In this document: piece by piece, positions 30,901 through 60,600 of the stretch
How the letters are laid out: each line of letters begins with the position of its first letter
Position numbering within the stretch: the first letter of the stretch is position 1
From: Xanthostigma xanthostigma
Lineage: Eukaryota; Arthropoda; Insecta; Raphidioptera; Raphidiidae
Reading direction: 5' to 3'
Assembly (NCBI GenBank): GCA_963575645.1
Contig: OY754465.1
Coordinates: 60,907,901-60,971,900, forward strand
DNA length: 64,000 nt
Position numbers and translations under genes: made by a program
Notes under the pieces: generated by a model
The model's database searches: none
What the model was told of the DNA's origin: nothing
The model's input: only the letters and a program-made list of their open reading frames with translations

Positions 30901-33900
30901 GTCCGACGCTTGAAGATCAAGAAAGACATTTGCTCGTCAAAGTTATAGACAGAATATTGTATAAACTGGACGATTTAGTCAGACCGTATGTGCATAAGAT
31001 TCTTGTTGTTATTGAACCGTTGCTTATCGATGAAGATTACTACGCTCGCGTCGAAGGCAGAGAAATTATTTCGAATTTGGCGAAGGCTGCCGGTTTGGCT
31101 ACGATGATTTCGACTATGAGGCCGGATATCGATAACATCGATGAGTACGTGCGAAATACGACGGCCAGGGCGTTTGCCGTCGTCGCGTCAGCTTTAGGAA
31201 TTCCGTCGTTACTTCCTTTTTTGAAAGCCGTATGCAGAAGTAAAAAATCATGGCAAGCGAGACATACGGGTATAAAGATCGTACAACAAATCGCTATCCT
31301 GATGGGCTGTGCTATTTTGCCTCACTTGAAGTCTTTGGTTGAAATCATTGAACACGGCCTCGTCGACGAACAACAAAAAGTTCGTACGATTACCGCCTTG
31401 GCCATAGCGGCGCTAGCCGAGGCCGCTACGCCGTACGGTATCGAAAGTTTCGATTCGGTTCTCAAACCGTTGTGGAAGGGTATCCGAACGCACAGAGGAA
31501 AAGGGTTGGCGGCTTTCCTTAAAGCCATCGGTTATTTAATACCTCTCATGGACGCCGAATACGCCAATTATTACACCAGGGAAGTGATGTTGATTTTAAT
31601 TCGAGAATTTCAGTCTCCCGATGAAGAAATGAAAAAAATTGTACTAAAAGTCGTGAAACAGTGCTGTGGCACTGACGGTGTTGAATCACAATACATCAAA
31701 GAGGAGATCCTGCCACATTTCTTCAAACATTTCTGGAATCACAGAATGGCTTTGGACAGAAGGAACTATAGACAGTTGGTTGATACCACCGTTGAAATCG
31801 CCAATAAAGTCGGTGCTTCCGAAATCATCAACAGAGTTGTCGATGACTTGAAAGATGAAAACGAACAGTATCGTAAAATGGTTATGGAGACGATTGAGAA
31901 AATCATGGGTAATCTCGGAGCTGCCGATATCGACTCTAGATTAGAAGAACAACTTATCGACGGCATTCTGTATGCCTTCCAGGAACAAACCACAGAAGTA
32001 AGTGTTCTATTTTTAATTTTCAGGTAACGCTTGTTTATTTACTTGTTTATTAATATGTTTATTTTTGACGTGATAACGTCTTATAAATTGATGAAACACC
32101 AGCTGCACGCACGAAAAAGTGTAACGTTCCGCCTGACCCTGTGCGTGCAAGCGAGAGCGCAGTATAAGCGATAGAGAGTCGGTAAAAATATAGTTTGACA
32201 GCTACTAAAATTTAGGTTATGTATTATTAAATATGATATTCGAGCGGAATACGTTATCACGTAAAACTATCGTCCGTAAACCGACTTTACAGACAACCAA
32301 TTTTTTTTTTTCAGGACGTCGTCATGTTGAACGGTTTTGGAACCATTGTCAACCAACTGGGCAAACGAGTCAAACCGTATTTACCACAGATTTGCGGTAC
32401 GATATTGTGGCGATTAAACAACAGATCGGCAAAAGTGAGACAACAAGCGGCCGATCTTATTTCCAGAATAGCCGTCGTAATGAAAACTTGTCAAGAGGTA
32501 AGTTACTCGCGTTTCATTTTTTTTTTACACGCTTTATATTAGTTTCACTTGTAAGTTTGTTTGTATGTATGCATGCATGTATGTAAGTATGTATGTTTGT
32601 TTGTAATCTCGTTTGGACTACAGCAAGTGGTTTATTACTGTTAGTATGTTATGCCACTACTGTAAGAGCAATCGTTGACCGAGCGGTCTAAGGCGCTAGT
32701 CTTTGCTGACGTCAACTCTCGGAATCACGGGTTGTGGGTTCTGATCCCGACCACGCCGAAATAAAAAATTTGTTTTTTTTTTTTTTTGGCAAATTTTTGA
32801 CAATAAATGGAACTAAAAAGTGGAAAATAAATATAGTTTAAAAAAAACTAAAAAACACGCTTTATATCAAACTAAAAAGTGAAAAATAAATATGGTTTAA
32901 AAAAAACTAAAAAACACGCTTTATATCAAACTAAAAAGTAAAAAATATTTTATTTAAAATAAGCTTAAAACAATAATGAATAAAAAACACTAGTATTATT
33001 GTGAAAAAAGCGTGGGGCGCTCGATGTACGAAAATGTGGAACAAAGCGCCCCACGCTTTTTTTTCACAATAATACTAGTATTTTTTATTCATTATTGTTT
33101 TAAGCTTATTTTAAAAAAAATATTTTATACTTTTGAGTTCGATATAAAGCGTGTTTTTTAGTTTTTTTTTAAACTATATTTTTTTTTTGTTTATTGTGCA
33201 TTTGTTAAAGATTTTGTCTTTTGTTCACAGGAAAAATTGATGGGACATTTAGGTGTAGTGCTGTACGAATACCTCGGTGAAGAATATCCCGAAGTATTAG
33301 GTTCGATTTTAGGAGCGTTGAAAGCGATCGTAAACGTCATCGGAATGACAAAAATGACTCCTCCAATCAAGGACTTGTTGCCGCGTTTGACGCCCATTTT
33401 GAAAAATAGGCACGAAAAAGTTCAAGAAAACTGTATCGATTTAGTAGGTCGCATTGCAGACAGAGGTCCAGAATATGTTTCGGCGAGAGAGTGGATGAGA
33501 ATATGTTTCGAACTTTTGGAACTGTTAAAAGCTCACAAAAAAGCCATCAGGCGAGCGACCGTCAATACATTCGGTTACATAGCGAAAGCGATCGGTCCGC
33601 ACGATGTGTTGGCAACACTGCTGAACAATCTGAAGGTTCAGGAGCGTCAGAATCGTGTTTGCACGACAGTCGCCATAGCTATAGTGGCCGAGACATGTTC
33701 CCCGTTCACTGTCCTACCGGCTCTCATGAACGAGTACAGAGTTCCCGAACTGAACGTTCAGAACGGCGTGCTCAAGTCTTTGTCGTTCCTTTTCGAGTAT
33801 ATCGGTGAAATGGGCAAGGATTATATATACGCCGTGTGTCCGTTACTTGAAGACGCGCTCATGGACAGGTAAGTCTTTTTACACGCTTTATATTAACTTC

Positions 33901-36820
33901 ACTTGTAAGTTTGTATGTATGTATGTATGTTTGTAACTTTCATTTGGACTACAGCAAGTGGTTTATATAGCGGTATAATATGCCAGCACAGTAAGTATCC
34001 TGGCAGCCGTGCGGTCTAAGGCACGGGTCTTCGCTGACGTCAACTCTCGGCATCGGTCGTGGGTTCGAATCCCGTCCATGCCGAAAAAAAAAATTGTTTT
34101 TTTTTTCGGCAAATTTTTGACAATAAATCGAACTAAAAAGTGGAAAATAAATATAGTTTAAAAAAAACTAAAAAACACGCTTTATTACAAACTAAAAAGT
34201 GAAAAATAAATATAGTTTAAAAAAAACTAAAAAACACGCTTTATATCGGACTAAAAAGTAAAAAATATTTTTTTTTAAAATAAGTTTAAAAAGCGTGGGG
34301 CGCTTTGTTCCACATTTTCGTACATCGAGCGCCCCACGCTTTTTAAGCTTATTTTAAAAAAATTATTTTTTACTTTTTAGTTTGATATAAAGCGTGTTTT
34401 TTAGTTTTTTTGACGTGATAACGTCTTATAAATTGATGAATCACCAATATTATAAATTGATAAAACACCGGCTGCATGTACGAAAAAGTGTAACGCATAA
34501 CGCGTAACGTTCCGCCTGACCCTGTGCGTGCTTTTTGCTAATTTCTCGCTCAATTTAAATCAGATCGGTTTGAAACCAGTCTTAAACGAAAGAGGAGAAC
34601 ATTTTACATAGATTTCGTATAACAGAATTTGCCTAAACAGTTTTTTTATACAAATTTATATAGAAAAATATTTTATACAAATTTATATAGAAAAATAGCT
34701 GTATAAATGCAATGTTGTGTAATGCATGGCGCGACGCGGTCGGTTGTCTTTGTTTGCCGTACATGGAAATTAGAAGCAAACGTATGTCTTGTCTTAACAT
34801 GAAAACGGCTGCATTTCTAATGTTTAATTCAATTTTTTGACATTAGTATATTGTGAAATGCAACGCCTTCTAAGTTAAGTATTGGAATAACTAATTATTA
34901 TTAGAACATAATACTTTGACAGTTGCAAACGTCACTTTTGACATTTCTTATCATTCCGACACCAAGGATAAGCGGATTGAAACCAAATTTTGGGAGGTTT
35001 AGGTTATGTATTACGGAATACGTTATCACGTAAAACTATCGTCCGTAAACCGACTTTACAGACAACCAATTTTTTTTTAAACTATATTTATTCTAAACGA
35101 GATTAGTTTTCGATCGGACAGTTTTTAATGTTTTTAATATTGTTGTGTTACAGAGATCTGGTGCACCGACAGACTGCCTGCGCAGCAATCAAACATATGG
35201 CGCTGGGCGTTTACGGTTTCGGTTGCGAAGACGCTTTAATACATTTGTTGAATTACGTTTGGCCAAATATCTTCGAGACGTCACCGCATCTTGTGCAGGC
35301 ATTCATGGACGCGATCGAGGGCATGCGCGTGGCACTCGGCCCTATCAAAATATTGCAATATACATTACAGGTATGTCGTCATATGACGTAAAAACCACAT
35401 TGTTTTATTAGATAGCTGAGCTGTGAAAGTAACGAGAAATTGTGTACCCGTATGTATTCATTACTTAAAGAACCAGTACCCGTTACTTTCGTATCGTTAC
35501 GTTACTCGGTAATTTTCATACGACATACAATAGTGTACTTAACAGCATCAAGCAATAAGCATGTAGCTTCGCACCAAAGCGCGTCGCATATGTGATACGA
35601 CATGAGTCATGACTTCGTACTTTATGAATACTTATAATAGTATAACACATTGTGTTCGTATAACCGTATCAAACGAGTCGATCTGACATGGATACGAAAC
35701 ATGCGAGTAACGAAATGAATTTGTAAGTAACGATTTGTTACTTCGAGTCAGACGATGTACCCGTTACTCAGTAACGAATACATACGGTTTGTTACAGCTC
35801 TTTTAGACAGCTGTTTAAATTTAAATATCTGGTTAAAATTAATATATTTTTATTACTCATGCGGGAAAAGTAGTATCTTTACGCATAATGTTACGGTTGA
35901 AAAGTAGCTATTTTCATTTGCGTGCGGAAACTTTATTTGTCGCACTGAAATTATTGTTTGCCGCACGCAAATTCAGAGAAAAAAACAAAACAACGGTATT
36001 AATGTCAACGAAACAAATTGTCATTTGAAGCAGATTTGAGGTTAAAATTTTCGATTATGGACTTATTCTTGACAATTTTAACTGAATTTTCAACTTTTTA
36101 ATGATTTAATTTTAATTTTTATTACTTCTAATTTCTTTTTTTAATTCGTAATAAAATTTTAATTCAATTTAATTTAATTCGTAATAAAAAATAGTATGTG
36201 CAACTTGTGCGGCATTGTCGCACTAGTTGCACAATATACTAGTTCTTCATACATGGACCGAAAGTACATACTTTCGACAAAAAGTCTAACATTTACGCAT
36301 TGGTGGGATTACACGCACTGATGCGGGAAGTACGTAGTTCGGGCGGCAGTAAAGAAAAAATAACCTATGAACTGTTGTTTAGATGTCGTTTCCATTGCAA
36401 CTCTATTACATTTTAGCTAATAGTCGCGAACAGCTGTCATTCGTGTTTTTACTTATAACCTCAAAGCTGCTTGCTTGGGGTTTATCTGTGTTTTTATGTA
36501 ATTAATAAGCGTACTTACGACCGAGGTATGAAAAAAAATAGTATACACCACACTGGCCGATATTTGATATTTGCATTGCGTGTCAAACTTTTCGCCCTTG
36601 TAGTGTAATATACTATTTTTACAGCTAACATGTTTTAATGATGCGCTTTGTTTATTTTCAGGGACTTTTCCATCCCGCAAGAAAAGTACGAGACGTATAC
36701 TGGAAAATATATAATTCTTTGTATATCGGCGGACAGGATGCCCTCGTGGCCGGATATCCGAGAATCACAAACGACCCGAAAAACCAATATATAAGATATG
36801 AATTAGACTACGTATTGTAA
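24318..36820 (+). CDS. SF3B1: Splicing factor 3B subunit 1 (SF3b155)
   Basis: Core U2 snRNP protein that clamps the branch-site helix in the spliceosome. Twelve exons close in frame to 1331 aa: 24318-24345, 24535-24794, 25223-25349, 27371-27450, 27533-27721, 28938-29148, 29224-29471, 30342-31997, 32315-32497, 33231-33868, 35154-35370, 36662-36820. The N-terminal third has many TP dipeptides and several U2AF-ligand motifs (RWDET/RWDQT), which bind UHM proteins. From about residue 480 on are the HEAT repeats, nearly identical to the human protein. Lys727 corresponds to human Lys700, the cancer hotspot, and is unchanged; the pladienolide-pocket segment [14 protein letters not shown] is also intact. 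AATAAA signals at 36903 and 36927. Introns are full of repeats, including acceptor-abutting and tRNA-bearing elements. Confidence 0.97.
27947..28007. repeat. (TG)n then (TATG)n microsatellite, SF3B1 intron 5
   Basis: About 38 bp of TG dinucleotides followed by TGTA/TATG tetranucleotides. It is part of a larger intronic repeat. Confidence 0.9.
28235..28800. repeat. Four tandem units of about 160 bp, SF3B1 intron 5
   Basis: Starts near 28235, 28400, 28557 and 28714. Each carries variants of gcatcaaaatcggttcattt followed by gttcacgagat..cgtgaacgaaaaa and a T-rich spacer. Units are diverged but clearly tandem. Confidence 0.75.
29571..30290 (+). mobile_element. Helitron-like repeat in SF3B1 intron 7
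   Basis: Starts TCTTATACTAATATATAAAG after an A. It contains the TTTGTTTGTTTGAACGCGC block common in lepidopteran repeats (from memory). It ends ..GACGGGACCGCTAG before a T, preceded by a short CACCCGGGTG palindrome. TC...CTAG ends between A and T are the Helitron hallmark. It carries a tRNA-Lys-like sequence. Confidence 0.65.
29846..29918 (+). tRNA. tRNA-Lys(CUU)-like sequence, probably pseudogene
   Basis: Exactly 73 nt with a perfect A box (TAGCTCAGTCGG), a near-perfect B box (GGTTTGAGCCC), anticodon loop CTCTTAA (anticodon CUU, Lys) and a T-run terminator after 29922. The T and D arms pair well. The acceptor stem (GCTCGAT/CTTGGAC) and the 5' side of the anticodon stem (CTCGA against TCTCA) have several mismatches, so it is more likely a decayed or captured copy than a working gene. 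Confidence 0.5.
32067..32300 (+). mobile_element. T-tract element copy A, abutting SF3B1 exon 9 acceptor
   Basis: Starts GACGTGATAACGTC after TTTTT (32062-32066) and ends ..CTTTACAGACAACCAA followed by 11 T and CAG|exon 9. The element is about three-quarters of this 317-bp intron. It is sense to SF3B1. Confidence 0.85.
32527..33160 (+). repeat. tRNA-bearing inverted-repeat element, SF3B1 intron 9
   Basis: The ends ACACGCTTTATAT / ATATAAAGCGTGT are inverted. Inside are a TATG-rich stretch, a tRNA-like sequence, repeated aaaaaacacgctttata units and a long hairpin centred on GCGTGGGGCGCT. A second copy starts in the next intron at 33881. Confidence 0.7.
32671..32758 (+). tRNA. tRNA-Leu/Ser-like sequence, degenerate
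   Basis: Has an A-box-like GACCGAGCGGTCTAAGGCG and a damaged B box (GGTTCTGATCC). The anticodon arm does not fold cleanly. Paralogous to 34001-34083. Probably a tRNA-derived module of the mobile element. Confidence 0.35.
33881..34404 (+). repeat. tRNA-bearing inverted-repeat element, SF3B1 intron 10
   Basis: Second copy of the element at 32527-33160, beginning 12 nt after the exon-10 donor. It carries the better-preserved tRNA-like sequence and the same GCGTGGGGCGCTTTG hairpin. Its 3' flanking T-run was the target of T-tract element copy B. Confidence 0.7.
34001..34083 (+). tRNA. tRNA-Leu-like sequence with intact B box
   Basis: GCGGTCTAAGGC resembles the D-arm of class II tRNAs and GGTTCGAATCC is a perfect B box. 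The 3' end TGCCG pairs with 5' TGGCA. The anticodon stem-loop is not canonical, so a functional tRNA is doubtful. Confidence 0.35.
34412..35069 (+). mobile_element. T-tract element copy B, SF3B1 intron 10
   Basis: Same ends as copy A, flanked by 7 T (34405-34411) and 9 T (35070-35078). The interior is enlarged by unrelated A+T-rich sequence. The equivalent site downstream of the tRNA-bearing element in intron 9 (33162-33170) is an uninterrupted run of 9 T. It ends 75 nt before the exon 11 acceptor. Confidence 0.85.
35416..35802. mobile_element. hAT-like MITE, AGAGCTGTAA family, SF3B1 intron 11
   Basis: Ends near GAGCTGTGAAAGTAACGAG and GTTACAGCTCT. Flanks ttagatag / ttagacag (7/8). Interior reads ..ACCAGTACCCGTTAC.. 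as in the copies at 37956 and 49549. Confidence 0.75.
35855..36245 (+). repeat. Dispersed repeat, copy 2 (partner 5555-5880)
   Basis: In SF3B1 intron 11. Shares ATTTGCGTGCGGAAACTTTA, the CCGCACGCAAATTCAGAG block and the terminal GTCGCACTAGTTGCACAATA with the copy near 5.6 kb. Confidence 0.6.
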
Positions 36821-37214
36821 AAATAATATAATTTGTTTGGCGTTTACTGTAGAAGTTGTTGCAGCAAAATTTATATTTATTTTGAATATTGAAAACACCT
36901 GTAATAAAAATTATTTTTAGTGTCAGAATAAAATGACTTGGTCATATTTTATGTTTTTTATTTGCAATTTTTTAACAATCATCAAAACAGCAATAAAAAT
37001 CTAATGCCTTAACTAGAATAATTTACCTCACACACAAACTACAGTATTAGTGAAATGTATTACCGGGGCACAAACTTGGCGTTTGAAACTCGTGTAATTG
37101 TCACACGAGCCGGATTTTCCGGTTATTAGATGTAAATATGTTTTTTAGGTTCCGGTCAAGGCATCAATATTACAGTAATTATGTAATTTACAAAACACCG
37201 GCAAACGTTTAAAG
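36821..37214. terminator. Convergent 3' ends of SF3B1 and CIR1
   Basis: SF3B1 poly(A) signals AATAAA at 36903-36908 and 36927-36932. The nearest minus-strand AATAAA for CIR1 is at 36962-36957, so the two mature 3' ends should meet or overlap slightly near 36940-36955. Confidence 0.5.
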
Positions 37215-40200
37215 TTAGACCCGTCTCTTTTTTTCGGGATATGAATTTTCCTCATGGTTAGCCCTTCTTTTTCTGTCTGTCGAATGCGATCGTCCATTTT
37301 GAGAACTGTGTTTACTTGATTTATGTTTAAAATACTTATCTTTCTTTTCTTTGTCGACACCATTTTCCAGCCTATGTTTACCGGACTCCCTTTCTTTGGA
37401 ATGTTTTTCATCGGTCCTAAACTTTCCCGATGTCCGCTCCAATACGCTCAATAAGGCGTTTCTTCGATACTCAGTGATTTCCGTATCATCTGAATCAATT
37501 TCATTTTTTTCAGATTTTTCTCTCTCATCTCGAAGTTTTGACTTGTTTTTCTTTTTCTCCTTTCTCTTCTTTTTATCCTTATCAGAGTCAGAAAAACTAT
37601 TTCGTAATTTTTTCTTTGATTTGTGTTTTTTCTTCTTTTTCTCCTCTGAGTCTGAACTCTTTTTTGACTTTTTCTTTTTTTTCTTAGCTTGTTCCTCTTC
37701 CGATGATTCCGACGAGTCATCATCGGACGAGCTAGAATCACTAGATTCGTCGTCGCTGTCCTTTGATTTGCTCTTATGCTTTTTTTTCTTACTTTTCTTG
37801 CTTTTCGTTGATTTTTTTGTCCTTTTTTCAAGCTTTTCTAACCTCCTAAAAAAGAAAATCCAAATTCGTATTAGTTTAAAAAATAGCCACAAAATATAAA
37901 AACATTCAGTTTCGAACTTAGTCCATTAGAGCCTGAAGAACACAATCATGCTCAGTAGAGCTGTAACAAACCGTATGTATTCGTTACTGAGTAACGGGTA
38001 CATCGTCTGACTCGAAGTAACGAATCGTTACTTACAAATTCATTTCGTTACTCGCATTTGTCGTATCCATGTCAGTTCGACTCGCTTGATGCGGTTATAC
38101 GTTATACGAACGAAGTCATACCGTATCACGTATGCGACGCGCCTCGATGCGATAGTACACGCTTGATGCTGTTAGTACACGATTATATGTCGTATGAAAA
38201 GTAACGAGTAACGTAACGATACGAAAGTAACGTGTACTGGTTCTTTAAGTAACAAATACATACGGATACCCAATTTCTCGTTACTTTTACAGCTCTAATG
38301 CTCAGTTGCAGAAAGCATTGTCCGAAAATTTGATTTGACAATGACCTTAGATTGTGAACATACATATTTCTCCATATGCAAAGTGTAGTAGAGTTTTAAA
38401 TCGATCCTGCTCGAAAAATAACTGATCGATTGAAACAATATTTTCCTTAAACTGTGCACACATGAATTTAGCATCGTAATTATAGTTTCCACCACAAAAC
38501 AACGTTTGTCTACGCATTTAGATCAAAATTTTACTTCAAACGCGATCTTTTTCTACGTTGAACTATAATTTGTTTTTGTGTGAGTACAATCTAATGTTCT
38601 AGAATCTAGATGACAGGGAGTTTGAATAAGACGTTAGACTTCTTCTGATATATGGAAACTGCGATCATATGATCACAATCTAAAGTCATTATCAAATCAA
38701 ATTTTTTGACAATCCTTTCTGTAACCCAACATCAGACAGTCATAATAGGGTTATTGACAGTGATTAAAATTAAATATAAAACTGTGTTATAATGAAAGTT
38801 TATGGTCTAAAATATCGTTTAGAATTATTATTTTTATTAAATAAGTGCGTTAAACATATTAAAATAAATAAACACAATCACGATTTTCAACCTATGTGTT
38901 ACGTGATTTCAAACACCAATCACAGCGCGTGACGTCATTAATCAGTCAACATGGCCGGTAGCTGTGTGACACTGACTGCCATGTGTATTCGTTATCTCTG
39001 TTCAGTGTATGTTCTCTGGTGTATTCATTGTACTCTGTCAATCATAACCATATGTCACGTTGTACCCGCTTGCTTAATGTTTACTGATTGCCTACTGTGA
39101 CGTAGGCAATCAGTAAACATGGCTGTCAAGGTCAATTGACGTTTTGGCGCAGAATTTAAAGTCAAAATAAAAAACGACTAATAATGAGTCAAATCTGTTA
39201 TATTTATGAGAAAAAATATTTTTTACGGGTACATATACCTTTATTCTTTAATTTTAAATACCTTTTTTTGAAATTTTGTCAATAACCCTATTGCGATGTA
39301 TTTAAATACTTACTTAAGAAGCTTCAACTTTTGTTTTTTCGTTAGTGAGGCCAATACTGTCTTTGGGTCATCGTCATTGTCGCTGTCGTCTTTGCAAGGC
39401 ATGATCAGTTTTTGGTTCTCTCGATGCTGGTTGTGTTCACGCATATTGAAAGTGCTAGTCTTCAGCAACAAACCGTCGTCCAACATCTGCTGCATTAAGG
39501 TCTGTTGATCCAATGAAGGGCCCGCCTCTGCAGCACGGGCTGCACTCATCGATATGCTGTACAGAGGACATTCCTTATCTGGAAACAAATGAAAACACAC
39601 ATTGTTTTACCATCAACAAAATGCGTCGGTTGCTCGATGGCTACGGGTGACGAAACTTACCTGTATTTATGTGGCCCCATTTATGACACTTGATGCAACG
39701 GACATTCCTCACTTGAATACCGAAAGGCTGATCGCGAATTTCAGAGTCACCCTTACAATAACTCTCTCTCGGTGCATTGTATTTTCTTTGCCACTCAAAC
39801 TTGTATTCTGGTTCATTGTCCTCTCTCTCGCGCTCTCTTTTGGTGCCCGGTGGTGGTTCGTACATAAAATTTACACTCAGTTTATCTTTGCTCTCTTTGC
39901 TTAGTATGGCTCTAAAAATGTATAAAGAAACATTAGTTAGATTATTATCGTGGATGAATACACAATATAAAAATATACTGATGAAAATGCGTTGCGTACT
40001 TGTTTTCGTGTAGATCTTGTTCTTTTTCATATTGAACGCGAAGTTCTTCTTGTTTCTTTTTGTAAGCTTCATTTTTTTGTTCTGCCATCCATACCTTAAA
40101 AAACAAAATTAATTATTCGGATGTCTACATTAACGATATTTTATTTGGCAACAATACTTACTCTTTTTAAGTTTTCTCTTGAAGCTGGATGAAAAAATTT

Positions 40201-40233
40201 CTTGCACATATAATTGTTGAACCCTTTACCCAT
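37215..40233 (-). CDS. CIR1: CIR1-like protein (CBF1-interacting corepressor)
   Basis: Nuclear protein linked in vertebrates to RBPJ corepression and to the spliceosome. Exons on the minus strand: 40233-40162, 40094-40000, 39911-39661, 39578-39314, 37845-37215, giving 437 aa. The N-terminus [19 protein letters not shown].. is the CIR_N domain. A CX2CX4HX6C zinc knuckle ([16 protein letters not shown]) follows at the exon 3/4 junction. The last exon is a long Lys/Ser/Asp-rich tail. The last acceptor is a tandem TAGGAG site; the upstream AG adds one Arg and matches the human spacing better. Intron 4 (1.5 kb) holds two MITEs. Divergent from the unnamed gene at 40650, convergent with SF3B1. Confidence 0.9.
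37956..38297. mobile_element. hAT-like MITE, AGAGCTGTAA family, CIR1 intron 4
   Basis: Ends TAGAGCTGTAA / TTACAGCTCTA with a perfect 8-bp duplication atgctcag (37948-37955, 38298-38305). Confidence 0.88.
38744..39292. mobile_element. MITE with AATAGGGTTATTGACA ends, CIR1 intron 4
   Basis: Inverted termini AATAGGGTTATTGACA / TGTCAATAACCCTATT. The interior contains a 20-bp-stem hairpin at 39077-39120 (TGTTTACTGATTGCCTAC and its complement). Target duplication not resolved. Confidence 0.65.
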
Positions 40234-40649
40234 TTTGACAATTTGTTGATTATAAATTTAGATTTAAAGCACATATGTTCATGTAATAACTAACACTGAT
40301 TAAATACAGATTTCAGTCTATTTTTTGCTAATCACAAAAATATTTTGCTCGTTTTCACTCAATTTATAAATCGACAGTCTGTAAAACAAGACTGTCAATT
40401 TTAGTCATCAGGTCAGGGAAGAAAACCATAGACATATCTGAATTTTATAAAAAGAATGTATATTGGCAAAATGTAACATTCGTAGGAACACTTCCGAATA
40501 TCGTATCGTAGATATAATACTGCAGTTGACGGCCATCATAAAGCTTTACATTTATTAACACTAGATTCTGCTCTTGTTGTAAACTGTGAAAATCGCCAAA
40601 TTTAAATATGCACTAGTGATTTACGAAATATTTCGTCGATTTTTATATA
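40234..40649. promoter_or_regulatory. Shared CIR1 / 40650-gene upstream region
   Basis: 416 bp between divergent start codons. A+T-rich, with no convincing TATA or named element; TATATAATG overlaps the 40650 ATG itself. Confidence 0.5.
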
Positions 40650-41915: not shown

Positions 41916-42094
41916 TACATATCGCTATAAATACGCAAGACAGTGTTAAATATCGCTCTGTTGTATATTATTTTTATGTAAATAGGCATTGTATTATTAT
42001 TTAAATAATTATTTTTTAGAGTTATATTTCAATTTTAAAAATATATGTAAATAAACAAAAATGCATTCTAAATGATTTTTTATAAAAAAACTAA

Positions 42095-44509: not shown

Positions 44510-47500
44510 ATGGTAAAAGTGACGTTTCTAAAAGATAGAAATTTTCATTGTTATTACCTATTGTTACAAATTTTCAATCGTAATTTGGTCTGTTATAGGG
44601 ATCCAATACAAATACGAATGATAATCCGATTGTTATAACGAATCTACAAGACGAGGAAACAATTCCTTATTCAATATGTTTAATAAAAGGATTTATTCAA
44701 AGTAAAACCGATCTAGCAGGTGAAATAACTACCTACAATCACAGCAATGAAACAGATAACAAAACCAACTGGATTCTGGTTCAGAATAGTTTCAAATGCT
44801 TAATCGAAATGCAAAAAGGAATAAATAAATTAACGATTCAATATTTACATTTTTCGTATAAGTTGAACTTGACGTACCGACCTTTAAACACAGAATACTG
44901 CGTATTGCCCGTTTATATAATATGCGAAGGACACGACGGATATTTTCAAGCACCCCAAAACTGTAAAAATACTCCAGAAGACGCTTGCGCTCGTATCGCT
45001 TTAGGTGCAAAATTAATACAAACAGTGTACGCTGAAAAAATATACGAATCAAATTTAGGTCGTAAAACGTTTCAACTTGAACACGAAATCAACCCCGAAA
45101 TGGGAGAATGCGTTGTTTTTAAAAGCGGTTTAAATATAGACCGAGCAAAGAAAATGAACGAAATGGATCTTTGGATTTACTTCGGAAGAGAATTGATGAG
45201 ATCTACCATTGCAAGCGATAAAAGAAAATATTTAGCATTTATATCTTGCACTTGGTACGACGGTTCAAAACTTGATTTAGATAAAGCGTTAAGTCATGAA
45301 ACTATTGTTAAGATGACTGAAGCACATGCAGCGTTGGGAGGAGGCGGTTTGGCAGTTTTTGGGTCTGCGTGTCTTCATACATGGCCGCAAAATATGGAAC
45401 AAATTCTCACTGCATTTACCGACGATACCAAAATTGACAAGTCAATTTTAATGGACGATAGTTGTTACAGGTATTCTATAAGTTCGAATCTTTGATTAAA
45501 GTCTGATTAGAACTCTTCAATAAATAAAAAAAAAGAATTCTATAAGTTCGTTCCAAGCAGCCGCGAACGGTAATAAAACCGTACACAGTCTTGTTACTGC
45601 GCAAGACTGTCTTGCGCAGTATCGATTTTTGAGCTAGTGCGCAAATTAGTCTTGCGCAGTGATAAGACTGTGCACGGTTTTATTACCGTTCGCGGCTGCT
45701 TGGAACGAACTTTATAAATATTTATTTAGTTCTTTCATTTAATGGTCGTTTTCAGCTTTAATTAACCCAATTCAAAATTGATCCAAAAATATGCGTGATA
45801 CTCTCGCGCGTTAAAAGTGAAACTTCTTAGATTCTAGCATTTGTCGACGATTTTATTATTTCAGGGTCAGATTATGTGGAATTTGTTACCATGGCTAGAG
45901 AAAAAGCTATATACACATAGTACGCACTGCGCATGCGTGTAGAGTGCGCATGACGCTTTGACAGAGAGAGTAGAAACGATTCTCCCACTCTTTCATTCAA
46001 CTACTGGTTGAAGCCGGAGAAGGGGAAGCGTTTCATTTTTCGTCTCATTCAAATCAATGTGCTCTACCGCACCTAATAATTATCGTATTTCTGTATTTCA
46101 AAATGACAGAACTGTAATAGTATTAATAGACGATCGAACTTGGTACGGACCGGACAACGGATATGGTCCGCTCTGTACCAAATCTGCTCGTCTAGACAAT
46201 AGTCTGCGTGTCTGCGCGGTTCGATGGTTTGCACATCATACTTGGTTCGGTTCGTACTTATATCGGTGCGTATGTATACAAGTACGATTGAACTTGATAC
46301 ATATAACCGTATAACGACGTCATTGTAATCCAAAACGTTGTGCAACATGACAGAAATTTTGACAGATAAGTTATATTGTAACAGAGAAGCGCGTAACAAC
46401 GCTCTAGAAATTCTTCAGGAGTGTTATTTAAAATATGATCTTCACTATCAAGCGATTTTATTAACTTCATATGACTAAATTCATCGCGATCTTTCAAATA
46501 GAATTTTGCCCACTCCTTTCTTTTCTTCCTTGTTGTTTGTGGCGGCATTAACGTTGCCGCTAGAACAATCGCAATTTTCGCGCGCTTAATTGGAGGCATG
46601 ATGTTCACGACCTGTGTACACAAAGAGACTGACAGATTCGGTCGTCTGTTGCAACCAGCGAACTTGATCCGCCGTACCATGTCCGCTCTCGGCCCGTACC
46701 ATGTTCGATCGTCTATTAATACTATAAATCAATTCTATTCACCTCTATTTAGTCTTCAAGGTGATTTTTGGCGTGATAACGTCTTATAAATTGATGAAAC
46801 ACCGGCTGCACGCACGAAAAAGTGTCATGTTCCGCCCGAGCGTGCAAACGAGAGCGCGGTATAAGCGATAGAGAGGCACGATCGGCCCAAGCGTCGGCTT
46901 GTACGCATTTCTCTCTCTTCTCGCGTGACGTCAGAGAGTTCATCAATGTTTCTTTATGACGTTATCACGTAAAACTATCGTCCGTAAACCGACTTTACAG
47001 ACAACCAATTTTTTTTTTATTTAAGGGGTACCCACGGAGCGTGCTTTACGACAACATTAGGATCAGTTTGCCATGAACTTGGGCATACGTTTGATTTGGG
47101 TCATACGGAAGACGGTATCATGGATCGTGGATTTGACAACATCGATCTTGTTTTTACTGTGCCAAAAAATGTCATTAGAAAGAGCAACAAATTAAACACT
47201 GTTCGGCCCATTTCGTCTAAAATATCTATGGTTCCGATCATAAGAAATTTCGACGTGTCTTTTGTTCCGGGATGTCAAATTAACAAGCAAAGGACGTCAG
47301 TTCAAAATAAAAAATATTCTACTTCTATGAAACATACAGACATACTCGAATGCAATAAACAAATAAATGACGGAAATGAAATTATTAATTACGAGCTTCC
47401 TGATTTAACGTATTTTACAAGAAACTGTGTTCTTATTCTCTACTATCATAGGTACGAAGAGAGCGTTATTTTCTAACGACTCCAGTTATCGAGCGTCTAT

Positions 47501-51263: not shown

Positions 51264-51643
51264 CAAATAAATATATTTTTATTAAAACGCTTGTGGCTAT
51301 TAATTACAAACTTTAAAAAAATAGAGATTCGGAATTGTAGAAAACAAACAACGTCTTTTGCAAAGTTTCTGATTTAATCAAATAAAACATACAAAAATTG
51401 CACTCCGGGAGTGCCGGCAGAAGTGAAAACTTGAATATTAACGTCTTACGAATTTTCGATCAGGTCACGTGTCCTGACGCGAGTTTAACATTTTTTACTC
51501 ATTACAAAAAAAGTGTACAAAAGTTTTCGTCTTACGAATTTTCGATCAGGTCACAAACAAAAAGTGTACAACGCCGCTAAAGAAGTTTTCACTTCAAAAA
51601 TTGTTTTAAAATTAAAAATAACCTTTACGTTTAGGAATTTGCT
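51264..51643. other. Convergent intergenic, GLTP / mRpL16
   Basis: Includes the GLTP poly(A) signal (51266). The phrase tcttacgaattttcgatcag occurs twice (51444 and 51530), a short direct repeat. Otherwise featureless. Confidence 0.5.
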
Positions 51644-54462
51644 TTAGTTATATTTTCCAAACCATTGTCGATCGATAGGTTTTGTCCACTTTTGGCAACC
51701 CAACATATTATTCTGAACCAAAAATTTAAAATTATATGGGTTTATATTTTCTCTTTCGACCCTTTCTTCATATTCTCTTTTTTTCTGTAAGGTTTCGTAG
51801 GAATATGCTTTTGCTGCAAATGGTAAATTAGCCGCAACAATTTCTAAAAAGCGCTTCACTTCGAAATATTCACAGTATCCTGCGACTTCGACAATAACTC
51901 TTCCGGCTTTAACGGGCGTTACATAATGATCGATAGCACCCTTTCCTCCACCCATTCGCTGCCCTTGTCCCTTTTTAGTGACGGGTTGCCACGGAGGGTC
52001 CACGCGCCAAACTGCAAACATTTTCTTTTCATCTAACTCTCTGTTGATCGTAAGACGAATCATTTCAAAGTGACCCCATTTTAAACGACCTCCACACTCG
52101 GCCTACAACATAAATTATCCACTTTAATTCTGAGTCGCAGAAAGTATTATCAGAAAATATGATCTGACAACGGCTTTCGATTGTGACCACATATTTATCA
52201 ATAATTATAAAGTAAATCGAAATAGATTAGATCAAATCAGAAGACGTGAGGCAAGCCTACAATGGCGTATTTAACAGTTTTATTTGAACAATTACCACTT
52301 TGAAATAACATTTTTCGGTAATTATACACTTTCACGATCACCTGGTTTTTTGGCTCTAGAAAATCGAAAAATACATGGATTTCATTGATCTCGGTCTCAA
52401 AAAGTTCCATTTTACGGCGGATTTATGAAAAAAATTAGTAGAAGTAGCTAAAATAAAAATTTTTTTTCTAAAAAATATTTATTTAATTGACTGTCAATTA
52501 AATATACATTTTTTAGAAAACGCAATTCTATTCAAACAATTAACTATCTAATTCGCATACCCCTTTATCGTTCACCCCGGAATTACAATTCGCATACCCG
52601 TTTAAATGCATAAATTGGAACATTCGTGTAAATGTGATTTAGAATGTGAAATAGAATACATTTTAGGCTGTAAAATACCGAAAAATTAACTTTTTTGAAA
52701 TTTTTTTTTTCAAAATATTCATTTTTTTATGTAGATTGCGAAAAAAAATATACGAACTTGATTCCACGACGTCAGAAACAGTTATAAAGGATTATATGTA
52801 GAAAGTCAATTTTTTTTTGCATTTAAAGTCATGAAACTGTGAGAAATATTGATTTTTTCAATTTTCGTATTTTTTTCCATAAATCCGCCATAAAAACGAA
52901 GATTTAAAAAAAAAATTCATCGAAATCGGATGATTTTTAGATTTTCTAGAGCCAAAAAACCAGGTGACCGCGAAAGTGTATAATTAACCATTTTTCTATG
53001 ATTTTTTGATAAAAAGTTAGTTTGAATAAAATATTTTTAACAAAAAAATTGAACCGACTTCAAAATATGCACTAAAAAGTAAAAAATAATTATTATTGTT
53101 ATTTTTGGAGTCGGTGTCAGCCAAAATGAAATCTATTCCGAGAACTAGAGACATGTAAGATTTAAATTGCTACTTTCGAATTCCGATGTGACACCGACTC
53201 CAAAAATGACAATAATTATTATTTTTTTACTTTTTAGTGCATATTTTGAAGTCGGTTCAATTTTTTTGTTAAAAATATTTTATTTTTCTCTTTTTAGTGT
53301 TAGATAAAGTATTGCAATGGGTAGGCCAAGTATGCGTGCCTTTGAAATTTGAGAGTTTCCCTCGATTTCTACGGATTCCACCATCAGATCCTGACTTGGT
53401 TCCGATGGGACCACCTCGGAAGTGCACTCTTTCGAATAAAAAAAAATTTTGAAAATCGGTCCATAATTGACGGAGAAATCGGTGAACATACATAAAAAAA
53501 AAATATACAGTCGAACATAGAACCTCCTCCTTTTTTGAAAATGATATTTTCCAATGTACTAGATCAGTCATTGTTCTTTTTTTTTTTTTTTGTGAGTGCA
53601 ATCGATTATATGATCACAATCTAGATCATTGTCAAATCAGATTATGTAATACCATTGATTAAAACACTAATTAAATCAATGGTAATATGATTAATATAAA
53701 CAAAACAACATCACTTACGACGACTCCATATTGCTTATGTATGAAAGTGTTATGCAATAATTCCGGTCCTCTTAGCAATCTCAAACGTTTTTGCATTTTC
53801 GGAGGCCTCATCGTGGGCGGGTATTGTGGAACTTTGTCAACAAATTTAAGTCTACGTCTTTCAGGAAACTCCATTTCTACAATAATTTTTGTTTAATTAA
53901 TTGCAATGTAATTGAATTTAACGTGTTGTCCGTACAAAATGTTATTTTATTTATTTTCCAACATGAATTTCTCACTTTTTATGATTAAGTACAATTATTT
54001 CAATGTTACAACAAGAGTCCGATCGAAGGCTAGTTTTATAGACAAAGTCGAATTTTGGTTTTTTCTTGCCTTCGGCCGAAGACGAATGTACTGTATAATT
54101 CTAAAATTGCGATGGTTGATACCCATTATTATACACTAACCGCAATTGCTCAAAAACTGAGAAGTATTTTTCCATTTGTTTTTTTTTTAATACTTATTGT
54201 TTGCAATTTACAAAGTTCTATAAGTCATTTAAATAATAGTATCGCTACTTCGCTTATTTAGTAAATTCATAATAACAAATCAATCTTACTCTCATATTTT
54301 ACAGGAGGTGGAAAATATTTTAAGCCAGCCGTCTGTATCGGCATTAAAGATTTTACACCTAAAAAATTAAAAAAAAATATTATGAATACCGTATAAATTT
54401 AAATAAATCACAGTACAGTATATTTACTCACAAGGGAATTTAAAACATCGTACTGCAAACAT
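51644..54462 (-). CDS. mRpL16: Mitochondrial ribosomal protein L16 (uL16m)
   Basis: Large-subunit protein of the mitoribosome, near the peptidyl-transferase centre. Exons on the minus strand: 54462-54432, 54358-54290, 53876-53719, 52102-51644, giving 238 aa (human 251). The first two exons are short but close exactly in phase: MFAVRCFKFP then ..MPIQTAGLKYFPPPVKYE, the usual targeting region and lead-in of insect L16m. The core has KWGHFEMIRLTINRELDE, RMGGGKGAIDHYVTPVKAGR and LPFAAKAYSYETL, diagnostic of the L16 family. The 1.6-kb last intron contains two large inverted-repeat elements. Divergent from UQCRB with 441 bp between starts, so two mitochondrial genes may be co-regulated. Confidence 0.93.
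52319..52986. mobile_element. Inverted-repeat element in mRpL16 intron 3
   Basis: The ends TAATTATACACTTTC / GAAAGTGTATAATTA are followed inward by matching blocks (CACCTGGTTTTTTGGCTCTA and complement, then the GGCGGATTTATG pair). About 670 bp in total, A+T-rich core without coding potential. Confidence 0.7.
53028..53282. mobile_element. Palindromic element in mRpL16 intron 3
   Basis: Arms of about 90 bp (AAAATATTTTTAACAAAAAA, ATTGAACCGACTTCAAAATA, TTTTTGGAGTCGGTGTCA and complements) around a short spacer. Foldback MITE. Confidence 0.75.
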
Positions 54463-54903
54463 TTTATTTATATTTTCTACTTCTTCAAATTAAACTAATA
54501 TTATACTTTCGTCTTTCAACAAACAAGGTTATGTACACAAAAATGTCTTTTGTGGTTATGTACAACCAGAGTATGGAGCACCCTCTATAAACCAGAGGTA
54601 CAACTACAAACTATCATAGAAAAGGAGCAAACAATTTATAGGCTATAGAAGCTAAGATAGAAGCTGTCGGTTTGTGAGGTTATGTAATAATTATCCAACA
54701 TTATTAGAAATTATTCCACCAGATGATTTCAAATCATTTTTTCAACAATAAAAGTGTAATCAAGTGACAGACAGGCAGCTATTGAAAAATTAATTCAGAG
54801 AAAGTTTTCTGTTCAAATACGGAAGAAAGTGATAAAGCCTTTAATTTTTTCAATAAGAAAATATTGAACACCATAAGTCCAGTTAACAGAATTGATATAA
54901 TCG
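54463..54903. promoter_or_regulatory. Bidirectional promoter region, mRpL16 / UQCRB
   Basis: 441 bp separating the start codons of two nuclear-encoded mitochondrial proteins. No TATA box and no repeat recognised. Contains ttatgtacacaaaa / gttatgtacaacca direct repeats near 54530-54570. Confidence 0.55.
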
Positions 54904-55290
54904 ATGGCTTTTGCGATATTAAAACAAAGTAGACAAAATCTGTGTTCTACAAAGTACATTGGAACCAGAGTTTTTGTCTGTCCAATTTTTACATTCGTAA
55001 AAAAAATCGCATTCCATCTTTCAGGCTTTAATAAGTACGGTCTGCTTTATGATGATTTAATGCGAGAGGATGATCCAGATACAGTGGAGGCTCTTCGACG
55101 ACTCCCTCTTCCGCTGAAAGATGAACGAGTGTATCGACAGATACGAGCAATGCAATTGTCGTTAATGCATACCGTTTTGCCCAAAGATCAATGGACCAAA
55201 TTTGAAAATGACATCAGATATCTTAAACCGTATTTGGACGAAGTGGAACGTGAAAAGCAAGAAATTAAAAAGTGGAAAAATAGTCATTAA
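54904..55290 (+). CDS. UQCRB: Cytochrome bc1 complex subunit 7 (UQCRB/QCR7)
   Basis: Matrix-side subunit of respiratory complex III. The frame from 54904 to 55290 encodes 128 aa. The conserved part starts KKIAFHLSGFNKYGLLYDDL and runs through EALRRLPLPLKDERVYRQIR, VLPKDQWTKFENDIRYLKPY to the charged C-terminus, as in insect UQCR-14. The N-terminus (MAFAILKQSRQNLCSTKYIG..) is about 17 residues longer than usual. A cryptic acceptor (tctttcag|gc) occurs at 55023, so a spliced short form is possible, but the uninterrupted frame already matches the family up to KKIAFHLSG. AATAAA at 55338. Head-to-head with mRpL16. Confidence 0.88.
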   Translation: MAFAILKQSRQNLCSTKYIGTRVFVCPIFTFVKKIAFHLSGFNKYGLLYDDLMREDDPDTVEALRRLPLPLKDERVYRQIRAMQLSLMHTVLPKDQWTKFENDIRYLKPYLDEVEREKQEIKKWKNSH

Positions 55291-55590
55291 CTTTGTAGTT
55301 CATTAATACTTGTTTTTCAAAATGTAATCATTTTCGAAATAAATATCATGAAAAGAAATATAATTTTATTTTACTTGCATTCACAATTTATTGCAGAATA
55401 TTGACATGTTAATTTGATTCAAAATTACTCAGTACCTCCATCATAACAAAATTACATACTGCTTCATCTTGATCAAACAATCATCTTCGACCCAAAATAC
55501 CTTCAGTACAATTAATGAATTCGGCCAAAAACATTCGCCAAAGCTCCATCAAAAATATTATGTTCTTTTAAAATTTTTTACTTTTCTTTT

Positions 55591-56142
55591 GACGTGATAA
55601 CGTCTTATAAATTGATGAATCACCAATCTTATAAATTGATAAAACACCGGCTGCGTGCACGAAAAAGTGTAACGTTCCGCCTGACCCTGTGCGTGCTTTT
55701 CTCGAAAACGGCCCTAAAGATTTGGATGAAATTTACTGAAAAGGGATGTTGGGGGGGCAAAAAATCGTTTTAGCTAGGCCTCATCTCTCGAAAAAATCGT
55801 TTTCATACAAATTTTATCATTATAAAAATCAATTTTTTGACGTATGAAAATACTTAAATATTGTAAGTAGGTTTTGGAATTTTATATAAACAATGAAACA
55901 ATTGTTTTCAAAATATTATGACAGTTAATCTTTGAGACTTAAAATAAATACGAAAGAAAGAAAGTTAAAAAAAACAATTATATTATAGGTGGTGAGTAAT
56001 TTTAATAAATAAAATTAACCTAAATTTGAAGCAAAAGATGCAATATCATAGATTCGAATTATTATATAAATTTAGGTTATGTATTACGGAATACGTTATC
56101 ACGTAAAACTATCGTCCGTAAACCGACTTTACAGACAACCAA
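55591..56142 (+). mobile_element. T-tract element copy D, intergenic
   Basis: Starts GACGTGATAACGTC after CTTTTCTTTT and ends ..CTTTACAGACAACCAA followed by 11 T. Its enlarged interior parallels copy B (ATCACCAAT.TTATAAATTG). A ctttatacag acceptor-like motif and a 100-codon open frame follow within 15 nt, so it may also abut an exon of an unrecognised gene. Confidence 0.8.
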
Positions 56143-56742
56143 TTTTTTTTTTTGCTTTATACAGTTCCTTCCTTCAAAAGTGAAAAAAAAACTACTTACG
56201 CTGAAAAAATCACATCCAGTGTGTGTTTTAAAATTTTTAACGAAATATTTTTTTGTAATATCTATAGGCATTTGAGGGAAAATAAAAACTTCAAAATTAA
56301 AAACATTAATATTTTTATTATTAATTTTATATTTATTAAAACTGATGAAGAACAAATGCGTAACTTTAGCACCACTTATAATTTGTACATAAAATTTAGC
56401 TCCAATAAATTTAATATTTTTCCCGATCTTAAAAACAATATGCATGGTGCTAAAGTAACAAAACACTGAAGAAAATACTTTCTTCACGTAGATCATATAC
56501 AGGTAAATATCAGTCTTATTAAACTAGAAATATAACTAATACAACCATTATCACTGTTATTATTGTGCTATTTTCTGGAAAGGGATAAAAATGACACAAA
56601 TAATTTTATTTGTATCTTTAATTTTTAGCGGGAATTTGAGCTACTCAAATGCTGCTTTAAACATATACTAAATAACAGCGAATATAATTCTAGTATTTAT
56701 ATTGATAACAGTATATTCCTTTGAAAACGGGGGCGTTTCTAG

Positions 56743-57138
56743 CAACGGCGGATCCAGGGGGGGGGGGGTCATGACCCCCCCTGAGCTGGTTCCAGGACTT
56801 AGGTGGACCACTAATTGAACATAATGATTTTATTTATATATTTTGTCACCATACAGATTTTATGTAACTACATACCTTCAATATTTAATTAATTTAATAT
56901 AATAGCTTTGTATGATGGCAAACGTTTGGGAACGAACGCATCGAAAATTTGAATTTTACCGCGCCACACTTGCGCGCGCTTGTCGACTACGTAACGTCTA
57001 GCTAGACCTAACCTCAATCGGAATCGGAACGACTAAACTTCAAATCATTATCATAACATAGTTCTAAGTTAAAAAACTAAAATTTCTTGACAACGACTAT
57101 GTGACCCCCTCCTGGCGCCAAAGCTGGATCCGCCCTTG
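56743..57138. mobile_element. hAT-like MITE with GGCGGATCCAG ends
   Basis: Inverted ends CAACGGCGGATCCAG / CTGGATCCGCCCTTG. Flanks gtttctag (56735-56742) and gtttctcg (57139-57146) match at 7 of 8 bases. Confidence 0.7.
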
Positions 57139-57697
57139 GTTTCTCGTTATAACATAATTTCAAAATGATAAAAATTTGTGACAACATAACCAAAATGTTT
57201 TCCAAAAAAAAAACAAAAAAAATATTGCCGCCGTTTTTTTATAGTAGTAAAATATTAAAATAAAACAGTTGAAAAAATACAACAGTCCAGTTATTTTTCA
57301 TAGCCATCTTCACTGTAGTTGAAACAAATGACTGACGTCAACAACTGTTTCATATATAATTTTGTCTACTGAAATTTTCACTCTTTCGGTAAATTCAAAT
57401 GGCACTAACATTTTGTTAATATTATGTTATTTTGTATAACAATTTAAACACTGAAATAATGTAAATTGTAAAATCCAATTATCAAAATATCTATTTTAAT
57501 TAGCAAAATTATTATGACTTAAAATATGTATGTGTATAACAAAGGCATATTTTTCACAACAAATGGCTTGTTTTCTACCTCTCATTTTTGTAAAAAAAAT
57601 ATTATTTTATTAAATTTGTATCGATGACAAAAAAAAAAAACAAACAAACAAAATCAGTAGATTCAGATCAAATCAGAAAAAAATAGATGTTTCACAT

Positions 57698-60600
57698 TTA
57701 AATCTTCAAAAACCACTTTTTCTTTTTTTTATCTTTAATCGGTGACACAGAAATCGTCGATTCGGATTCATCGACGTCTTTATCTGCATCCATATTATTA
57801 CCTTTCGCTCTGGCTCTTTTCTCTTTTTTAATTTTTCTCTTCTCCTTCTTCGAAACTTTAACCGGACTTTGAGACTGTAAGTTAGATTCTTCATCTCTCT
57901 TAGCTGCCAATAGAGTCAGATGTGAACTGATACTCAGATCTTCTTCTGCTTCGCGCAACCGATCCATTTCCAAACATTCAACGATTTCGTTACGCCTTTC
58001 TACGACCTCGACCAATCTGCTAATCAACTCCTCTTCTCGAGCTTTATCCGAATCGGTTTTGTTTTTTTCTGGCTGCGCCATCAAGCATCGGATTTGGTAT
58101 TCCAAATCTGCATGTTCTTCTTCCAATCGCTGTTGTCTACGTCTAAAAAAATTGGTTGTCTGTAAAGTCGGTTTACGGACGATAGTTTTACGTGATAACG
58201 TCATAAAGAAACATTGATGAACTCTCTGACGTCACGCGAGAAGAGAGAGAAATGCGTACAAGCCGACGCTTGGGCCGATCGTGCCTCTCTAACGCTTATA
58301 CCGCGCTCTCGCTTGCACGCTCAGACTCACGCGGAACGTGACACTTTTTCGTGCGTGCAGCCGGTGTTTCATCAATTTATAAGACGTTATCACATCAAAA
58401 ACCATGCAAATCTCGTTTAGACCGAAAATAAGTCACAACGAAAGAATTAAAATTTTATTAGTTTCACACTTACAAGTACATGAGCTCTGCCTGTTTTCTG
58501 AAAAGTTCATTCTTTTCATTTACCAACTCGAACAACTGTAAAACGAGATCTTCAACTTCGGGCGTCATCGAAGAATCTACAATAAATAAAATTAGTGTCC
58601 GATACATAACTGACTAAAAAAAACAGTTGTGTGATTTTAAGAAACCACGACGCAAGTGAAACTTTTATTGGATTGTAGACACTTATCCATCACGATTAAT
58701 TATAAACAAAAATATTCACATGAATACACGAATAAAAACATGTAAACACTGTACAGCACTTGCCCGCATGACAGACTGACTATGTGTTATACATACTACA
58801 CGGTCAGCTGATGCTAACCATGGGCGCCGCCATATTAGCCTTGGCTGCTCTACCGAGCGCCTACTCCGAACGCCTTTCACTTTACTCCTACTCCGCGGCC
58901 GCCTGTAATGCGACATGCAACAGACGGCCAGAAAAATTCGGGGCGATAGAATAAAAGTTTCACTTTCAAAAGCATTGTTCACTTAAACATCGAAAGTATG
59001 ATTTACCGTCACTACTGTTGGGCCCCTCGCACTTCTCCCTAATCAACTGTTCAATCTTGACGCCCTGCTTCTCCAGACCCTGTTGCTGCACCTCAATCAA
59101 TTCTAGCTCGCGCTTCAAATCCTCAATCATCGGCAGCGCTCGAATTTGACGTCTCTGTGGAGGAGCCGGTCTCGGAGGCGCAGGTCCTTTCTTTCGCTTC
59201 CATTTGCCATACATGCTTTTGTTCATTGTTGGAAAACTTGGCATATCATTATCTGACGTCGGACCTAAAAGAAGAAAGATGTTACGGTATAAATTAATTT
59301 GTTTAACAAAATATGCTATTTTTCATTTAGAACAGTGATTCCCAAAGTGGTCTATATCGACCCCTAGGGGTCGACGACAACTTGCAAGGGGTTCATGTCA
59401 GCGGGAGAAAAAATTGGGGGTCTATGAAATGAAAATAGGGGTCAACGATAGTGAATCTCCTAACAAAAAAAATTGGTTGTCTGTAAAGTCGGTTTACGGA
59501 CGATAGTTTTACGTGATAACGTATTCCGCTCGAATATCATATTTAATAATACATTACTGCGCTCTCGCTTGCACGCACAGGGTCAAGCGGAACGTTACGG
59601 CGGAACGTTACACTTTTTCGTGCGTGCAGCTGGTGTTTCATCAATTTATAAGACGTTATCACGTCAAAAAAGGAACAAACTGGACATCGTTAACCGAAGA
59701 GATTTAAGATTAAATCTAACTAAATTGATGCCAAATGTTGAAAATTTATTATTAAAGCATCTCATCCCTCACACTAAAAGCATTTATTTTTTGCTTGGTT
59801 ATTTTATGTAACAGAAAGTAAATTTTAATTTGATTCGTTTAATTTGAATCTAATTAATAAATGTATAAAACTAAACATTTCATACTAAATTTCACTACCA
59901 TTATAAATTCAAATCGTTCAAAGTGAGTAGCACTATACCGGTTGTCAAAAATACATTTGAAATTAATGAATTTGTAAAAAATCAATATTAGATAAGCAGG
60001 GGGTCTACCCAAACCCGAAAAACATGGCAAGTGGTCTACAAGACAAAAAAGTTTGGGAACCTCTGATTTAGAAGGAATACTCACTTATAGTACTGTTCGT
60101 ACTTGAAATCATGCTTTGTCTCGTCCTGTTTTGTTCATCTTTACTGGTCTTGGCTTTCTCCCATTCTGACGAGCCAAGACTTTTGTCTGTTATTTGCTCG
60201 TCGGACACAACCACCAGCTTGTCTTTCAATTCGGCAGGCGTAACGATAGTATCGGTCGCACTCGCTGTAAAATCGGGAGGCGCCGGAGCAGGTCTGTTCT
60301 TGCGTAATTTTGGAGTGACCTTCGGTGAATGTGACTGGAAGTCATGAACAGTACAGGTAATAACCAGAGTCTGATCGACGAAGACAAGTTTCTTTAAATA
60401 AAACAAAAACGAACCACTTACCCTGCTGTGAGAAGGACTCGATGATATGGAACTATGTAAGGACGAATCATCCGCAGCAAAAAGTTCTTTAGCAACGCTA
60501 GGGGGAGGAGGTGCCGGTTTCTTTTTACGTACGGTTCCGCACGGAGTACGTTGGCCACTGCTATTTAGCGACACTGTTGAATCATACGGCGTGCCTATTT

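Follow-up and report, generated by a model that had tools for sequence, protein, structure and literature searches.

An abundant T-run-inserting element of Xanthostigma xanthostigma, probably a non-autonomous Helentron, with copies beside splice acceptors

Results

Our study examined a 64,000 nt stretch of the genome of the raphidiopteran insect Xanthostigma xanthostigma (hereafter the window; C2:60907901-60971900, where C2 is contig OY754465.1, in a genome of 623 Mb and 28 contigs). The window carries six copies of an element that is very probably a HINE, a non-autonomous Helentron (a rolling-circle transposon of the Helitron2 type), present in tens of thousands of copies. The six copies lie where the first-pass annotation had placed them. 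Copy 1 (32067-32300, + strand, short form) and copy 2 (34412-35069, +, long form) are found in introns of SF3B1, copy 2 within the T-run of another repeat and 84 nt from the SF3B1 acceptor at 35153. Copy 3 (46770-47008, +) is found in intron 45471-47025 of a PF12044 metallopeptidase gene, and copy 5 (58152-58396, -) and copy 6 (59473-59665, -) in different introns of a MICAL-like gene, copy 6 approximately 208 nt from an acceptor of that gene. Copy 4 (55591-56142, +, long form) lies 3' of a UCR_14kD (UQCRB-like) gene and could not be assigned to any definable intron. All five intronic copies are sense to their host gene, which had also been reported and holds within the window.

Copies 1, 3 and 5 each lie at the edge of a 3' splice site, and the reading frame was conserved across all three sites. 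In SF3B1 the site consists of T11 and CAG (32301-32314, +) and closes intron 31998-32314; the exon after 32314 continues human SF3B1 in frame, this gene having been mapped exon by exon with the human protein sequence, and its key exon also through PDB sequences. In the metallopeptidase gene the site consists of T10 and ATTTAAG (47009-47025, +). The spliced protein reads MDDSCYR up to this junction and GTHGACF after it, and was gapless there in three of four homologue alignments (P0022, P0010 and P0003), with 23 extra residues in the fourth (P0025); the named homologues of the exon are insect proteins, with about 50% identity or less at three-quarter query coverage. In the MICAL-like gene the site consists of T7 and AG (58143-58151, -; AG at 58144-58143). 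This gene encodes LIM and bMERB domains, the latter on the exon downstream of the copy 5 acceptor, and has MICAL relatives in the PDB. The earlier claim that three of the five intronic copies end at the AG of an acceptor, in three different genes, was borne out as regards the acceptors, with a spacing from T-run to AG of 0, 1 and 5 nt. A de novo intron for the copy at 46770, using the donor-like GTGATTTTT just 5' of the element, was considered and rejected: the donor that keeps the frame is at 45471 and gives an intron of 1,555 nt. Inside this intron, at ~45540-45710, a long inverted repeat (CAAGCAGCCGCGAACGGTAATAAAACCG and its complement) was seen by eye and is perhaps another transposon.

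The 3' end of the element, CTTTACAGACAACCAA, is exact in all six window copies. Four copies also match the 5' start, GACGTGATAACGTC, exactly, and those that start at 46770 and 58396 (-) each depart from it by one change. As previously described, T-runs flank every copy, with 4-7 T on the 5' side and 7-11 T on the 3' side. None of the window copies was seen to contain a long open frame of its own. In copy 1, a 5' subterminal inverted repeat (subTIR) of 14 nt, itself palindromic (GACGT-GATA-ACGTC), occupies 32067-32080 (+), and its inverted copy, the 12 nt 3' subTIR ACGTTATCACGT, occupies 32251-32262 (+). The 3' member of this pair (ACGTGATAACGT / ACGTTATCACGT) is 38 nt from the CAA end, or at least 43 nt when the T-tract is counted. 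It is followed by an imperfect hairpin, GTCCGTAAA-CCGAC-TTTACAGAC (32272-32294, +; eight pairs around one mismatch), which stands 6 nt ahead of the T-tract, and then by AACCAA and the T-run. The hairpin contains TTTAC; no other yTnAy motif occurs within the final 49 nt of the shared 3' end, and 11 nt separate the A of TTTAC from the T-tract. Of 98 copies, 93 retain CTTTACAGAC unaltered, and the TTTAC adenosine is 25 nt from the intron end in SF3B1, 28 nt in the metallopeptidase gene and 20 nt in the MICAL-like gene.

Searching the 623 Mb with a 33-base 3' core (at most three mismatches) gave 25,861 matches (13,015 + 12,846), and the same pattern read backwards gave 0 in the same genome. The exact 3' and 5' strings had 0 matches in viral contigs, and the exact 3' string had 0 in prokaryote genome contigs. 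A sample of 98 distinct copies was drawn from sites with an exact 3' core, for which reason the copy ages are biased. The 86 copies with both ends comprised 34 short (<260 nt), 6 middle (340-420 nt) and 45 long (540-700 nt) forms and one of 1,027 nt, and short, middle and long forms have common ends. Median divergence from the majority sequence was 2.2% for short copies and 16.4% for long copies, the long set being a mixture.

The sampled copies displayed a consistent relationship to T-runs. Of the 98, 97 had five or more T on the 3' side; among the 87 with a located 5' end, 83 had four or more T on that side. A 5' end was accepted only when preceded by TT, and 11 of 98 copies had none. The sole 3' exception was L015 (C1:195520-198552), in which a small internal duplication at the 3' end (CTTTACACTTTACAGACAACCAA) hid a T7 from the script. 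This copy still has T on both sides and is perhaps an end variant that still moved.

Ten paralogous empty sites, taken as the pre-insertion state, allowed the T-run before insertion to be compared with the 5' and 3' T after it. A run of T5 became 4+6 in L018 and L022, 4+10 in L039 and 4+8 in L074; T6-7 became 5+8 in L013, T6 became 6+6 in L017, T8 became 6+6 in L072 and T10 became 6+7 in L056. For window copy 6 (paralogue L006, 94% identity) T7 became 6+8, and for copy 2 the counterpart at 33162-33170 (+), where the tail of the same repeat has an unbroken T9, gives 7+9. The net gain over the ten sites was 3-9 T, and no non-T base was duplicated in any of them. Among the seven sites of T5-T7, the 5' side equals the old run minus one in six (L013 taken as T6), so TTTT^T is the usual cut. 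These sites support the earlier view that T-tracts are targeted and that the T-run is rebuilt at the 3' edge. Weaker or ambiguous alignments were left out of the rule (L002, L019, L034, L035, L041, L042, L043, L052, L067 and L071), of which L042 and L052 fit T5. As a long and a short form stand in the same T-run of one repeat, copy 2 and L072 are independent insertions.

Several of the repeats that receive the element were also recorded. A repeat beginning AGGTAAGTTCCCAACCTAAAAATAGTCATCTGTCAAAATG (on C1, C2, C3, C4 and C6) has at least six insertions at or near its T-run, and L042 and L071 lie close together within another repeat. In the window, two related repeats occupy 32540-33170 and 33870-34410. 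Stretches resembling tRNA (GGTCTAAGGC) were visible by eye in them, as was a long inverted repeat around GCGTGGGGCGCT; the one at 33870-34410 carries copy 2 in its terminal T-run.

Preference for acceptors was assessed within the host genes, by a coding score and by donor proximity. The three host genes contain 199 sense TTTTT points, 34 of them within the last 25 nt of an intron, and 155 antisense. Against this null, which covered 14 introns (several SF3B1 limits being approximate, and one MICAL-like intron and the later PF12044 introns being left out), at least three of five copies near an acceptor had P = 0.038 on sense points and P = 0.0076 when both strands were counted, and five of five sense had P = 0.056, in a test that is post hoc and uses genes selected for containing the copies.

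The coding score asks for coding-like sequence after the T-run. Its codon table was derived from ~8 kb of exon sequence in the window, of which one 211-215-nt piece was read in the wrong frame, slightly dulling the score. Seven known acceptors all scored >3.5, some of their exons being in the training set. Outside the window, 1 of 99 copies preceded coding-like sequence, compared to 57 of 2,936 other T5 runs. By contig, the copies gave 1/92 on C1 and 0/7 for the C2 neighbours, and the background runs gave 24/1,531 on C1, 33/1,165 on C2 and 0/240 on C3/C4. The sole positive copy, L049, shows 34 open codons without any Pfam match; it is doubtful that this is an exon, although a short one is still conceivable. 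With looser matching the window gave 8 copies, 4 of them positive, and C1 gave 93, 1 of them positive. The extra rows (window 30831 and L035:62) lack a T-run and are spurious, so the stricter counts of 6 window and 92 C1 copies were used.

Genome-wide, the strong donor AGGTAAGT was found 30-60 nt upstream of the exact 5' end in 19 sense cases, compared to 15 in the antisense control. Six of the 19 sense rows derive from one repeat (AGGTAAGTTCC.AACC...) and three of the 15 antisense rows from another; with these set aside the counts were 13 and 12, against an estimated chance number of 10-12. Acceptors of short introns that have this strong donor therefore host few copies. A T6 background near donors (sense pattern, 1,041 forward and 2,149 reverse) was not used as a control, the strands seemingly having been counted differently. 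Two intronic copies are antisense: L010, whose 5' start the script did not recognize, lies between two exons of a carboxylesterase gene, and L093:2162 lies between the domains of a TMEM132 gene. A rule of 'always sense, at acceptors' thus fails for the family. A genome preference for acceptors was not found, either among the 99 outside copies by coding score or in the genome-wide donor-proximity counts, and neither the repeated landing at acceptors nor the sense bias of the first-pass annotation extends beyond the window.

A search of the genome for Helitron_like_N (PF14214) gave 89 matches, of which seven lie in open reading frames 2,103-2,509 aa long. About 30 of the 89 lie in frames of ~1,500-1,575 aa and had equal or near-equal scores, some being 15-27 kb apart, which looks like a recent Helitron burst in this genome.

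Discussion

Our data are most likely explained by a mobile element of a known kind that is highly abundant and follows a clear T-run rule. A canonical Helitron has a 5' TC and a 3' CTRR with a hairpin and inserts between A and T; this candidate was rejected, as the element ends in GACG...CCAA and sits in T-runs. The first-pass annotation did not recognize the family. We assign the element to the HINEs, and so to the Helentrons, with high confidence because of its palindromic 5' subTIR, the inverted 3' copy, the 3' hairpin, the T-rich targets and the lack of any non-T duplication. In PMC4067079, HINEs are described with subTIRs of ~11-15 bp that are palindromic in many families (12-15 bp for the palindromic ones), the 3' one 38-60 bp from the 3' end, a palindrome ~8-35 bp from the 3' end, and T-rich targets of varying T number without target modification. 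Our element has the subterminal repeats, the short stem-loop near its 3' end and, over the 98 copies and ten empty sites, a T-rich site with T on both sides and no ordinary target duplication. DINE-1 (PMC2374699) and oyster HINEs (PMC7492417) are concordant with this description.

A number of observations weigh against this assignment or the rule attached to it. As DNA the hairpin is weak (-2.7 kcal/mol, z -1.3), with 26 of 200 shuffles equally good. An autonomous Helentron with these termini was not found, one of the seven candidates of >2,100 aa (C10:6816221) having been examined on one side, at a guessed 3' region that lacks them. Two poorer paralogues oppose a strict T5 requirement, since the run where the copy would sit is short in each, namely TT for L035 (71-77% identity) and T4 for L067 (80%). 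The T gain may be either a T-tail borne by the element or duplicated target T, as the empty sites fit both. Finally, 3 of 6 copies in the window were positive by coding score, compared to 27 of 662 T-runs, far above the outside sample; within the window this excess at acceptors is genuine, and it is the best argument for the earlier annotation.

Duplicated target T would suit a miniature inverted-repeat transposable element of the terminal inverted repeat type (e.g. derived from a Mutator-like element or hAT) with T-rich target duplications. The T on both sides and the net T gain are compatible with a duplication of ~5 T, and a subterminal inverted repeat does exist. However, the termini are not inverted repeats of one another (GACGTG... 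and ...ACCAA), the inverted repeat is asymmetric, standing at the 5' edge but 38 nt inside the 3' edge, a 3' hairpin is present, and a duplication carrying sequence was seen at none of the ten empty sites. We consider such an origin very unlikely. The introner-like behaviour proposed in the first-pass annotation, in which a transposon adapted to acceptors creates introns, would account for three of five intronic window copies at verified acceptors and for the sense orientation of all five. It is less compatible with the host introns themselves, as those of the three acceptor-edge copies still measure 77, 73 and 1,310 nt when the element and six T are removed, so that the element is not the whole intron. 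Together with the single outside copy before coding-like sequence, the lack of a clear sense excess near strong donors and the occurrence of antisense intronic copies, this leaves an introner as an explanation to which we attach hardly any weight.

Under the HINE assignment, a Rep/helicase/endonuclease acting in trans presumably mobilizes the element, which inserts into T-runs, mostly of T5 or longer and, in short runs, mostly ahead of the last T. In our sample, nearly all copies have a minimum of 4 T on the 5' side and of 5 T on the 3' side. As the T-run is lengthened at the 3' edge, insertion into the polypyrimidine tract of an acceptor leaves a tract beside the AG, and copies at acceptors are sense because the T-run there is on the sense strand. 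The acceptor positions would then be a by-product of target choice and survival, with no targeting rule.

How splicing survives may depend on the element itself. The branch-point-like TTTAC in its 3' end, 20-28 nt ahead of the intron end, could allow splicing to persist, with branch point and tract coming from the element and AG from the host. If the old branch point was 5' of the insertion site, the element has moved it away by at least 234-245 nt, and AG scanning would make so distant a branch point unlikely, given the other AG dinucleotides upstream. SF3B1 is essential, and is itself a factor in branch-point recognition; its copy 1 intron must therefore be spliced. A portable module of this kind, whose 3' end would maintain or confer acceptor function at any AG immediately 3' of it, is suggested by the single yTnAy motif, its conservation and its spacing, as well as by the displacement and by the need to splice SF3B1. 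On the other side, yTnAy is a degenerate 5-mer, a role in the hairpin explains the TTTAC sequence equally well, and there is no genome-wide acceptor excess. We regard the module as possible, if somewhat unlikely. The more specific proposal, that the 3' terminus of a Helentron, while under selection for rolling-circle termination, also serves as branch point and polypyrimidine tract, is tentative and on the whole improbable. If true, insertions between an old branch point and its AG would leave a working acceptor, and a class of sites in essential genes would open to the element.

A very abundant insect repeat thereby acquires a probable family and a sharply defined insertion rule, in which the cut is mostly TTTT^T and T is gained on balance. 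For the question of how an intron survives with >230 bases placed between branch point and AG, the copies at the three acceptor edges are natural experiments.

With regard to known systems, the subTIR 12-mer had no occurrence on either strand in the open-access papers searched, and the open-access literature yielded, with the terms used, no report of Helentrons inserting at polypyrimidine tracts. The HINEs and Helentrons of Metaseiulus, Culex and Drosophila, as presented in PMC4067079, resemble the window element in their subTIRs, 3' palindrome, lack of coding capacity, T-rich target, variable T number at the ends and lack of target modification; our element differs in its 25,861 core matches, its 3' T-run of at least 5 in 97 of 98 copies and an autonomous partner that is not linked. 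DINE-1/INE-1 of Drosophila is alike in its 13-bp subTIRs, its stem-loop after the 3' subTIR, its TT insertion preference and its hundreds of intronic copies per species, yet differs in subTIR sequence (PMC2374699). Introners (PMC9860276) are likewise non-autonomous DNA elements near splice sites, but they constitute new introns, whereas the window element inserts in introns that hold more and also outside genes. Antisense Alu U-tracts provide a known parallel (PMC3629564). Alu is a retroelement whose tract comes from poly(A) in antisense and which makes new exons, whereas here the tract stands at the sense 3' edge of the element, at acceptors of existing genes.

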